Shown here piece after piece: positions 11,370 to 61,014 of a stretch of 64,000 nucleotides of DNA. Positions within the stretch are counted from its first letter, which is position 1; each line of letters starts with the position of its first letter. The DNA comes from a bacterium (GTDB lineage Bacteria > Desulfobacterota > Deferrisomatia > Deferrisomatales > Deferrisomataceae), in NCBI GenBank assembly GCA_027021615.1, contig JALUTY010000021.1:62001-126000 (forward strand), written 5' to 3'. Position numbers and translations under genes: made by a program. The notes below the pieces were generated by a model. It did not search any database. It saw only the letters and a program-made list of their open reading frames with translations, and was not told the origin of the DNA.

Positions 11370-13445
11370 ATGTCCGTGCCCCCCGCTGACCTGGAGACCA
11401 CCGACCAGAACCTGGCTCAGCGCCTCAAGGAGGAAGAGGAGCTGGGACTGCGCCGGCCCCACGGCTGGCAGCGTTGGCTCGTGCCCGCCATCGCGCTGAC
11501 ATGGAGCGCGTTCCAGCTCTCCCTCGCCAGCTGGCTCCTCCTGGACTCCACCTACGTGCGGGCCATCCACCTGGCCTTTGCCTTTGCCATCGTGTTCCTG
11601 TCGTACCCCACGCTGCGGCGCACGGTACGCATCCCGGGGCTCCGGTGGCTGGGCGAGAAGCGCAGGATCCCGGGGATCGACATGGCCCTGGCCCTGGCCG
11701 CTGTGGTCTCGGCCGTGTACATCGCCTGGGACTACGAGGGCGTGTCGGCCCGCATCGGCATCCCCAACACCCAGGACATCGTGTTCGGCATCGTGCTCGT
11801 GGTGTTCCTGCTCGAGGCGGCCCGCCGGGTGCTCGGGCCGGCCATGCCGATCATCGCCGGCGCGTTCACCCTGTATGCCTTCTTCGGGCCGTACATGCCG
11901 GACGTGATCGCGTTCAAGGGCGTGAGCCTCGATCGGTACGTGAGCCAGATCTCCATGAGCACCGAGGGGATCTACGGAATCCCCCTGGACGTGTCGGCCA
12001 CCATCGTGTTCCTGTTCGTGCTGTTCGGCTCCATGCTCGAGAAGGCAGGGGCGGGCCGGTTCTTCATCGATCTGGCCATGAGCCTGCTGGGGCGGTACAA
12101 GGGCGGGCCGGCCAAGGCCGCGGTGATGTCGAGCGGGCTCACCGGCCTCGTGTCGGGCTCGTCCATAGCCAACGTGGTGACCACCGGGACATTCACGATC
12201 CCCCTCATGAAGAAGGTGGGATACCCCCCCACCAAGGCCGCGGCCATCGAGGTGGCGGCCAGCACCGACGGCCAGATCATGCCACCGATCATGGGGGCGG
12301 CGGCGTTCATCATCGCCGAGTACGTGAACGTCTCGTACCTGGAGGTGGTCAAGGCTGCGGCCATCCCGGCCTTCGCCTCCTACGCCACCCTGTTCTACCT
12401 AACCCACATCGAGGCCTCGAAGCTCGGGCTCCGGGGGCTTCCCAAGGCGGACCTGCCCCGGTTCCGACAGACTCTGGTCTCGGGTCTCCACTACCTGATC
12501 CCGCTCCTCGTTCTCCTCTACGAGCTGATCATCCCCCGTCACTCCCCGGACCTGGCCGCGTTCCGTGCCATCCTGGTGCTCGCCGCGGTCATGCTGCTTC
12601 AGCACCCGATCCGGGCCTGGCGGACCGGGGGGGACATGGGCGCGGCCCTACTGCGCTCCGGCGCAGAGATCCTGGACGGGCTGATCTCGGGGGCCCGAAA
12701 CATGGTCAGCGTGGCCGTGGCCACGGCAGCCGCCGGCATCATCGTGGGCGTGGTGACCATGGGGCTCGGGGGTCTCATCACCGACGTGATCGACACCCTG
12801 AGCCAAGGGAACATCTACCTGATGCTCGCGATCACGGCGTTCGCCAGCCTGATCATGGGTATGGGCCTTCCGACCACAGCCACCTACATCGTGATGGCGG
12901 CCCTCACCGCCCCGGCCATCGTGCAGATCGCCGAGTGGAACGGGCTGTTCGTGCCGATCATCGCGGCCCACCTGTTCTGCTTCTACTTCGGGATCCTGGC
13001 CGACGACACCCCGCCGGTGGGCCTGGCCGCCTACGCGGCCGCAGCGATCGCCAAGAGCCCGCCGATCCCCACCGGGCTCCAGGGGTTCATGTACGACATC
13101 CGCACCGCCATCCTGCCGTTCATGTTCATCCTGAACCACGACCTGATCCTGTGGGGGATCGACAGCTGGCCCCAGGGGCTCATGATCTTCGCGGCCACCT
13201 GCATCGGGGCGTTCGCCTTTGCCTCGGCTACCCAAGGGTGGTTCATCACCTGGAACCGGTGGTACGAGGTGCCGCTGCTGCTCCTGGTGACCCTGATCAT
13301 GATGCGCCCCGACTGGACCAGCAGCCTGGTGGGCATCCCCCGTGAGCAGCGCTACTGGATGTACCTGGTGGGGCTGGCGGTGTGGGGGCTGGTGTACCTG
13401 CTGCAGAAACCCCGGGTGGCTCGGACCGCCCCGAGCCCGGCCTAA
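11370..13445 (+). CDS. TRAP transporter fused permease (DctQM-type)
   Basis: 691 aa polytopic inner-membrane protein that fuses the small (4TM, DctQ-like) and large (12TM, DctM-like) TRAP subunits, as usual in TAXI systems. Many hydrophobic segments run from residue 35 onwards. DctM-type signatures include SGLTGLVSGSSIANVVTTG, EVAASTDGQIMPPIMGAAAF, and the second repeat MGMGLPTTATYIVMAAL and FGILADDTPPVGLAAYAAA. It works with the TAXI binding protein upstream. Its TAA stop forms part of the CTAA that flanks the inserted 176-bp element. Confidence 0.95.
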   Translation: MSVPPADLETTDQNLAQRLKEEEELGLRRPHGWQRWLVPAIALTWSAFQLSLASWLLLDSTYVRAIHLAFAFAIVFLSYPTLRRTVRIPGLRWLGEKRRIPGIDMALALAAVVSAVYIAWDYEGVSARIGIPNTQDIVFGIVLVVFLLEAARRVLGPAMPIIAGAFTLYAFFGPYMPDVIAFKGVSLDRYVSQISMSTEGIYGIPLDVSATIVFLFVLFGSMLEKAGAGRFFIDLAMSLLGRYKGGPAKAAVMSSGLTGLVSGSSIANVVTTGTFTIPLMKKVGYPPTKAAAIEVAASTDGQIMPPIMGAAAFIIAEYVNVSYLEVVKAAAIPAFASYATLFYLTHIEASKLGLRGLPKADLPRFRQTLVSGLHYLIPLLVLLYELIIPRHSPDLAAFRAILVLAAVMLLQHPIRAWRTGGDMGAALLRSGAEILDGLISGARNMVSVAVATAAAGIIVGVVTMGLGGLITDVIDTLSQGNIYLMLAITAFASLIMGMGLPTTATYIVMAALTAPAIVQIAEWNGLFVPIIAAHLFCFYFGILADDTPPVGLAAYAAAAIAKSPPIPTGLQGFMYDIRTAILPFMFILNHDLILWGIDSWPQGLMIFAATCIGAFAFASATQGWFITWNRWYEVPLLLLVTLIMMRPDWTSSLVGIPREQRYWMYLVGLAVWGLVYLLQKPRVARTAPSPA

Positions 13446-13621
13446 CCCGCATGATTCATGAAGCCTTCTGCTGCAACCGCCGATTGCACGCCATCTCGGG
13501 GCGTGCTCGCGCCTTGGGGCTCAGCGTACCGTCCCGTACGCCTGCGCCCCTCGTTGCTGCGCTTGCCCCGACCTGACGCACACTCGACGGTTTCGCGACG
13601 AACGCTCATGAATCATGTGGG
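13446..13621 (+). mobile_element. MITE-like 176-bp element, copy 1
   Basis: Terminal inverted repeats of 16 bp: CCCGCATGATTCATGA at 13446-13461 and TCATGAATCATGTGGG at 13606-13621, one mismatch. CTAA is found directly on both sides (13442-13445 and 13622-13625), consistent with a 4-bp target duplication. No coding capacity. A second copy of nearly the same length is at 60838-61014. Confidence 0.7.
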
Positions 13622-13637
13622 CTAACGGAGGTGCCCC

Positions 13638-14126
13638 GTGATTCCCGTGTACAAGACCATTTTGTACGCCACCGACCTCTCCCCCAACGCGGCCCAGGCG
13701 TTCCGACACGCGGTGAGCCTCGCACGGCATTACGACGGCAAGATCCACATCCTTCACGTGCTCCCCGAGGTGGACTCGGCGGTCGTCAACTACGTGTCCA
13801 CCGTGATGGGTGAGGGCCGGCTCGGCGCGTTCGAGGTGGAGCACAAGCGCGAGGTGGTCGAGGAGATCGAGCGCAGGCTCGCCCGGTTCGCCGAGCAGGA
13901 GCTGCCCGACCATCCGGAAGACCGGGCCCGGGTGGCCGGAATCCTCGTGAGCCACGGCGACCCCGCCGTCCAGATCCTCGAGGCGGCCGAGGACGTGGAT
14001 GCCGACCTCATCGTGATGGGTAGCCACGGCAAGGGCCGGCTGCGGCACGTGTTCCTGGGCACCGTGGCCGAGCGGGTGCTCCGGAAGTCCCGCCGACCCG
14101 TGTTCGTGTCGAGGCTGGTGGAGTGA
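13638..14126 (+). CDS. Universal stress protein (UspA family)
   Basis: 162 aa, GTG start with GGAGGTG upstream. Begins YKTILYATDLSPNA and ends with the ATP-binding type loop VMGSHGKGRLRHVFLGTVAERVL (G2xG9xG(S/T) region), so a nucleotide-binding Usp is expected. Cytosolic. It follows the TRAP permease after the inserted element, and Usp genes often accompany TRAP-TAXI transporters, so it may be part of that unit; the element now separates them. Confidence 0.92.
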   Translation: MIPVYKTILYATDLSPNAAQAFRHAVSLARHYDGKIHILHVLPEVDSAVVNYVSTVMGEGRLGAFEVEHKREVVEEIERRLARFAEQELPDHPEDRARVAGILVSHGDPAVQILEAAEDVDADLIVMGSHGKGRLRHVFLGTVAERVLRKSRRPVFVSRLVE

Positions 14127-29040: not shown

Positions 29041-29431
29041 CGGGTGCGGGCGGGAGGGCTGTAAGCCGGGTTCTGTACCCCTTTCGGGGCGGCGACCATT
29101 CCTCTGGGACCCGGGTCTCCCCGGGCCTCCAGCGGCCTACCCGGGAGCTTGGGGCGGGCCACCCTCGTTGCGCTCCCCTATTTGGCCTTGCTCCGGGTGG
29201 GGTTTGCCGAGCCGGCCCGGTTGCCCGGACCGCTGGTGAGCTCTTACCTCACCGTTTCACCCTTACCCGGCCCCCAGCACGGCTGAGGGCCGGGCGGTCT
29301 GTTCTCTGTGGCACTTTCCTTCGGGTTGCCCCGACTGGACGTTATCCAGCACCCTGCCCTGTGGAGCCCGGACTTTCCTCCCTAGGGGCCCTGCCCTAGG
29401 GCGGCCGCCCGCCCCCTCGCTGCCGCACCCG
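29041..29431 (-). ncRNA. rnpB: RNase P RNA (bacterial type A)
   Basis: About 391 nt. Both ends pair (CGGGTGCGGGCGGG with the 5' GGGTGCGGCAGC region). Universally conserved P RNA segments are present in order on the minus strand: GAGGAAAGTCCGGGCTCC, then CAGGGTGCTGGATAACGTCC, GGAAAGTGCCACAGAGAA, GTAAGGGTGAAACGGTGAGG and the 3' ACAGAACCCGGCTTACAG. It is the catalytic RNA that trims tRNA 5' ends. It lies between dispersed repeats on both sides, with no protein gene in between. Confidence 0.97.
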
Positions 29432-31343: not shown

Positions 31344-31420
31344 TGGTGGGCCCACCTGGATTCGAACCAGGGACCGGCCGGTTATGAGCCGGCTGCTCTG
31401 ACCAACTGAGCTATGGGCCC
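31344..31420 (-). tRNA. tRNA with CAT anticodon (probably Ile2; elongator Met possible)
   Basis: 77 nt with encoded CCA. Perfect 7-bp acceptor stem (GGGCCCA/TGGGCCC), D-arm GCTC...GAGC, anticodon stem GCCGG/CCGGC around CTCATAA, T-arm CCTGG/CCAGG around TTCGAAT. The G1:C72 pair excludes initiator tRNA. The GCCGGCTCATAACCGGC arm resembles lysidine-modified tRNA-Ile2 more than elongator tRNA-Met. Confidence 0.9.
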
Positions 31421-60622: not shown

Positions 60623-60647
60623 CCCGTACGCAGGCTTTCCGACAACT

Positions 60648-60682
60648 TCGGTCGTCGATCTACGGTCATCCGTCGGCGGTCG
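60648..60682 (-). repeat. Period-7 tandem array upstream of the rplU promoter
   Basis: TTCGGTCGTCGATCTACGGT then CATCCGTCGGCGGTCG: degenerate CGGTCNN heptads. The DNA from 60683 to 60837 shows nothing I can name. Confidence 0.6.
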
Positions 60683-60837: not shown

Positions 60838-61014
60838 CCCGCACGACTCATGAGGTTTCCTGCTGCGACCGCCAAGTGCACGCCATCTCAGGGCTTGCTC
60901 GCGTCCCAGAACTCGACGTAGCATCCCCCAACGCCTTCGCCCGCAGCGCTCGTGCCTGCCCCGATCTGACACACGCCCAGCGGTTTCGTGACGCACGCTC
61001 GGGAATCATGCGGG
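60838..61014 (+). mobile_element. MITE-like 176-bp element, copy 2 (177 bp)
   Basis: Ends CCCGCACGACTCATGA (60838-60853) and GGAATCATGCGGG (61002-61014), with shared interior blocks TGCACGCCATCTC, GCTTGCTCGCG, CTGCCCCGA and GCGGTTTCG-type sequences in the same order as copy 1. No clear target duplication; more diverged. Confidence 0.65.

Follow-up and report, generated by a model that had tools for sequence, protein, structure and literature searches.

Within the 64,000-nucleotide stretch of DNA analysed here (the window), a gene for a TRAP-type permease and a usp-like gene are separated by a 176-bp sequence bounded by inverted repeats. This arrangement raises the question of what this sequence is, how it came to lie between two intact genes, and which enzyme might have moved it.

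A gene-less element at the permease-usp junction

The coordinates of the element, its length, the 16-bp terminal inverted repeats, the CTAA on both sides and the lack of an ORF were all found as a first-pass annotation had given them (Table 1), and so was its location at the stop codon of the permease, since the TAA at 13443-13445 lies within the left CTAA. The two terminal repeats are identical at 15 of 16 positions. When the window was searched for the terminal-repeat pattern with up to three mismatches, four matches were obtained versus 0.32 expected, a number that none of 100 shuffles equalled. Inspection of the ORFs within the 176 bp revealed no plausible gene and no transposase ORF, and an Rfam scan of the window matched copy 1 to no known RNA family. 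The same scan detected a class A RNase P RNA and a tRNA at 29046-29420 and 31347-31420 on the minus strand.

Table 1. Features of the window that bear on the inserted element.
Feature	Position	Strand	Basis or remark
Left target duplication CTAA	13442..13445	+	sequence; G001 has a single CTGA and no element
MITE copy 1, 176 bp, full-length hairpin	13446..13621	+	
Left terminal inverted repeat CCCGCATGATTCATGA	13446..13461	+	
Right terminal inverted repeat CCCACATGATTCATGA	13606..13621	-	
Right target duplication CTAA	13622..13625	+	sequence
TRAP-type permease gene, intact, ends inside left CTAA	11370..13445	+	ORF of 691 aa; C-terminal part conserved in relatives
usp-like gene, intact, GTG start at 13638	13638..14126	+	
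usp ribosome-binding site GGAGGT	13627-13632		downstream of right CTAA
MITE copy 2, 177 bp, decayed, 74% identical to copy 1, no target duplication	60838..61014	+	

Copy 1 is short, is devoid of a transposase gene and has terminal inverted repeats and a CTAA/CTAA duplication, as is typical of a MITE; to this the family as a whole adds multiple dispersed copies and insertion evidenced by empty sites. An IS1380 insertion sequence proper was rejected as an identity for copy 1, given that no PF13701-type transposase is encoded in the 176 bp. Copy 1 may behave as an IS1380 passenger, though it is not itself an insertion sequence.

Dispersed copies and a YTAR target

Further copies in the genome, whose absence the first-pass annotation had named as a refuting outcome, proved to be numerous. 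In the window's own genome (G000; 4.25 Mb in 134 contigs), there are 40 matches at 88% identity or higher, plus further copies interrupted by contig ends. Distinct copies with two ends number 35; they are 175-180 bp long and 85-99% alike. The left flank is CTAG in 25 of 39 cases, CTAA in six and TTAG in four, and the right flank is CTAG in 28 of 43, CTAA in five, CTGG in four and TTAG in three. Both 4-bp flanks are identical in 21 of the 35 copies versus 14.9 by permutation (p 0.004). This excess comes from the CTAA/CTAA and TTAG/TTAG copies, and it favours a duplication of 4 bp over one of TA, which the empty site alone could not exclude. CTAG, the preferred target, is scarce in the window as a whole, with 33 occurrences versus 177 expected from base composition.

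A special targeting of stop codons was considered and rejected: 12 of the 35 copies close an ORF of at least 100 codons versus 24 of the 56 YTAR sites of the window, so that stop codons are not enriched among the insertion sites. For an element that targets YTAR, lying at the permease stop is nothing out of the ordinary.

Nested IS630-type insertions account for the odd left end of three copies. IS630-like elements are found at the same TA in the MITE terminal repeat, between CCCGCATTA and TATTCATGA, in four copies (L020, L031 and L032 of G000, and L133:276-1390 of the genus-mate G002); the form in G002 carries a 346-aa transposase, and those in G000 are miniature forms of about 270 bp. An ORF at L071:1697-2014 that resembles the start of an IS200-type transposase incorporates, in frame, the right half of a MITE copy. 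The upstream flank of L023 holds an interspersed repeat distinct from the MITE and about 110 bp long, present in dozens of copies in G002 and a further genus-mate, G001, often near contig ends. A short CTTCGGTCGTCGGTCT-type repeat at 60643-60682 of the window is likewise scattered many times through G001 and G002, and this motif also adjoins several MITE copies.

Empty sites and the history of the insertion

An uninterrupted permease-usp junction with a single 4-bp site, for which the first-pass annotation had proposed to look in relatives, is present in G001. Its junction reads CCGGCCTGA-CGGAGGTGTGCC-GTG, and the counterpart in the window reads CCGGCCTAA, then the 176 bp, then CTAACGGAGG; G001 has a single CTGA where the window has CTAA twice, around the element. 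As CTGA differs by one base, the four ancestral bases at the window site are not certain. The genome of G002, a single contig, carries an insertion at the same permease-usp place with the same duplication. In G003, G009 and G010 the permease and usp genes are close together with no element between them; in G008 the leader between the genes is longer, and the MITE ends were not seen there. A second empty site was found for the G000 copy at C17:67697, which in G002 is uninterrupted, with TTAG. Judged from these junctions, the window insertion is older than the split between G000 and G002, or else it was lost precisely in G001. The annotation had held that an element fixed in the usp leader of relatives would speak against a transposon; the element is indeed shared at this site with a second species, G002, and so is fixed in part of the genus, yet the leader did not originally contain it.

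Of 13 copies in G002, four have both flanks in common with G000. A fifth is also shared but contains a nested IS630-like element, and two or three others are compatible with points at which the G000 assembly is interrupted within a copy. Shared copies and empty sites together imply that the family moved during the history of the genus. With about 40 copies in the genome and an empty junction in G001, the proposal of a MITE, a non-autonomous transposon, is well supported.

The second copy in the window is real and diverged, as had been noted, but its flanks, CCAT and TTGG, reveal no target duplication. It scores 130.7 bits (E 4e-29) with the covariance model described below, copy 2 itself being among the 15 sequences of that model, and it is a decayed member of the same family as copy 1. 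It lies upstream of a minus-strand ORF resembling rplU, in an intergenic stretch that is about 350 bp or more shorter in G001 and G002; an insertion in G000 or a loss in G001 and G002 may each account for this difference.

IS1380-type ends and a probable transposase acting in trans

The statement that the window contains no matching transposase is not contradicted by our data, but the genome does hold one with related ends, on contig C23. There, an IS1380 transposase runs off the start of the contig, and the 5' end of the element reads CTAG followed by CCCGGATTATTCACGA. A search with PF13701 (IS1380) yielded one complete element of 1682 bp in G002, whose ends, CCCGGATGATTCATGA and CCCGGATAATTCACGA, have CTAG on both sides and agree with the MITE ends at 14-15 of 16 positions. 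Both transposases, from G002 and C23, are above the NCBIfam IS1380 cut-off.

Scanning genome contigs for TAGCCCGCATNATTCATGA gave at least 117 loci, with Jannaschia seosinensis among the matches listed. The genome of J. seosinensis has 51 IS1380 matches; their 3' ends are mostly CCCGCATAATTCATGA, 15 of 16 positions being identical to the MITE, and their flanks are CTAA, CTAG, TTAA or TTAG, hence YTAR. In L309 and L320, the two elements with both ends read, the flanks are identical on both sides. This IS1380 expansion (L309-L338) has many of its 51 matches at contig ends, and its 5' and 3' ends (CCCGGATAATTCACGA and CCCGCATAATTCATGA) differ from each other. Plasmid-borne IS1380 elements also have related ends, and the 4 bp that they duplicate are CTAA or CTAT; in some of them the ends were looked for and none were recognised.

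The MITE thus shares 14-15 of 16 end positions and the YTAR target with an autonomous insertion sequence, and IS1380-family transposases are, on this sequence evidence, the most likely source of its mobility, a family that the first-pass annotation had not named. We assign a probability of roughly 0.83 to the reading of copy 1 as a MITE with IS1380-type ends whose transposase would be supplied in trans. What counts against an IS1380 source is that the IS1380 elements of the genus end in CCCGGAT and the MITE in CCCGCAT. No element with both ends identical to those of the MITE was present among the IS1380 elements examined, no IS1380 transposase was found by tblastn between the end pairs 1.4-3.3 kb apart in L144, L205 and L213, and a search for plasmid or phage vehicles of the MITE gave no DNA match. 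The interior bears no likeness to the compared IS1380 elements; as only the ends are shared, "IS1380-mobilisable" is a better name than deletion derivative. A MITE of the same type is present on a putative viral contig (L360; IMG/VR contig IMGVR_UViG_3300015264_000082), the only viral contig with MITE ends, where these are paired about 240 bp apart at 802-1043.

These data lend themselves to the following model. An IS1380-family transposase would recognise the 16-bp ends, CCCGCATNATTCATGA, in trans; the element would then be cut out and inserted, presumably by cut-and-paste, at a YTAR site, in most cases CTAG, and these 4 bp would thereby be duplicated. In the common ancestor of G000 and G002, it would have entered a CTAA where the permease gene ends. 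The duplication kept the TAA stop codon of the permease and the ribosome-binding site of usp intact, and both genes consequently survive. The distance from the permease stop to the usp start is 12 nt in G001 versus 192 nt in the window, so that a once-tight junction would now hold a very stable hairpin, and the coupling of permease and usp may have been weakened.

Homologues in distant bacteria and a hairpin kept across phyla

Homologous full-length elements of 60-70% identity occur in Nitrospira, among them one in the complete genome of N. moscoviensis (L185), and in MAGs of Acidobacteriota and Lysobacterales, and a Binatota contig has a 71% match over 136 bp; MAGs may include misbinned contigs, but the genomes of N. 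moscoviensis and G002 each consist of a single contig. A covariance model was built from 15 elements, copy 2 included, and used for searches of individual genomes. G000 gave 86 matches, G002 gave 33 and N. moscoviensis 12; most other genomes of the Nitrospira group searched had 39-79, and one had three. Two Acidobacteriota had 25 apiece, a Lysobacterales genome had 42 and a Binatota genome at least 94. Self-complementary elements can contribute to all of these counts on both strands, so that the true number of copies is smaller and may be only about half as large. The same search gave no match in G003, G004, G005, G007 and G008. A MITE in the phylum-mate G080 has the same ends and an unrelated interior. 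With an E-value threshold of 1e-30, PF13701 matched nothing in 18 of the 20 distant genomes searched, and in those genomes the MITE family looks like an orphan.

Folded as RNA together with its flanking CTAA, copy 1 reaches -93.1 kcal/mol (z -8.1), and the N. moscoviensis element -99.4 kcal/mol (z -5.3). In the 15-sequence alignment, the 40 consensus pairs are 94.5% paired and 21 of them have double-sided changes, counts that relatedness inflates and that refer to a consensus structure derived from the same alignment. None of 500 shuffles matched the observed values, and slid structures were at most 41% paired. With the structure obtained from the window sequence alone, 70% of the inner pairs form in distant sequences versus 33-44% for slid structures. 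The full-length hairpin hence appears to have been kept across phyla by many double-sided base-pair changes.

Such a hairpin might now be a selected part of the transcript, serving in processing, stabilisation or attenuation between permease and usp, with its transposon origin minor for the present role. The stability of the fold, its retention at this position in both G000 and G002, and the double-sided changes across phyla are in keeping with this idea. However, G001 manages without the element, no promoter- or terminator-like site was found in it, and the covariation characterises the family as a whole and not this particular site; moreover, arm-to-arm correction of a DNA palindrome could give the same pattern without any selection on RNA. 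We therefore consider a present transcript function at this junction unlikely. A broader proposal, doubtful on balance although less so, is that a single old hairpin MITE family, its architecture held together by compensatory changes, persists in many copies in Thermodesulfobacteriota, Nitrospirota, Acidobacteriota, Binatota and Lysobacterales, in genomes of which most have no IS1380 transposase of their own, and that the hairpin itself may be selected, either for a role in RNA processing or stabilisation or as a substrate for mobilisation, instead of being a relic of the ends.

A different transposase as a possible mobilising enzyme

The likeness to IS1380 could be coincidental, and the MITE could be moved by an enzyme of the IS5 type, with a YTAR target, or of the IS630/Tc1 type, with a TA target. 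YTAR is also a target of IS5, IS630-type elements occur in the genus, and many host genomes of the MITE family are without PF13701. With regard to the IS5 type, a search of G000 for PF13586 found no match. The ends, however, match IS1380 at 14-15 of 16 positions directly adjoining the same 4-bp site, the excess of identical flanks fits 4 bp and not TA, and the ends of the IS630-like elements of G002 show no sequence relationship to those of the MITE. These last two observations lead us to reject an IS630/Tc1-type MITE with a TA duplication, and a non-IS1380 transposase in general seems quite improbable. The reading of the 176 bp as an immobile intergenic repeat that always belonged to the usp leader, or as an inverted repeat that arose by chance, has nothing beyond the intergenic position in its favour and is refuted by the two empty sites, the target duplications and the roughly 40 copies.

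Comparison with known systems

Linking the element to IS1380 connects an orphan repeat, present in many copies in several groups of environmental bacteria, with a transposase family whose YTAR insertion preference can be read from the flanks, and the clean empty sites make this connection testable. At the same time, the cross-phylum covarying hairpin poses the question why an element that carries no gene should retain its fold, and a second question is which enzyme moves the MITE where no IS1380 transposase is found.

IS1380-family insertion sequences (PF13701 / NF033539; ISAcr4, elements on plasmids of Sulfitobacter and Skermanella, and the Jannaschia copies) have the same 16-bp ends of the CCCGSATNATTCAYGA form and the same YTAR-like 4-bp duplications; the MITE differs from them in lacking a transposase gene and in an interior unrelated to that of the compared elements. 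ERIC, Correia/NEMIS and RUP repeats likewise lie between genes, form hairpins and have inverted ends and short duplications. Their known ends and targets differ from those of the MITE. The literature searched contained no paper on an IS1380-type MITE, and a review of MITEs does not name IS1380 (PMC10969869). The piggyBac transposons have a conserved 4-bp TTAA target, and IS1380 has been used as their outgroup (PMC10813416); TTAA is also used by some of the Jannaschia IS1380 copies, but piggyBac is eukaryotic and would serve as a mere analogy for insertion with a 4-bp duplication. With prokaryotic MITEs in general, the element shares its short, gene-less build, inverted ends, direct repeats, multiple copies and a stable stem-loop transcript. 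MITEs are typically AT-rich (PMC10969869), whereas the one described here is GC-rich (65%) and has cross-phylum homologues with a covarying hairpin. Collectively, its copies and homologues form a new MITE family of a familiar kind, which folds into a hairpin and is spread over several bacterial groups that are only distantly related.
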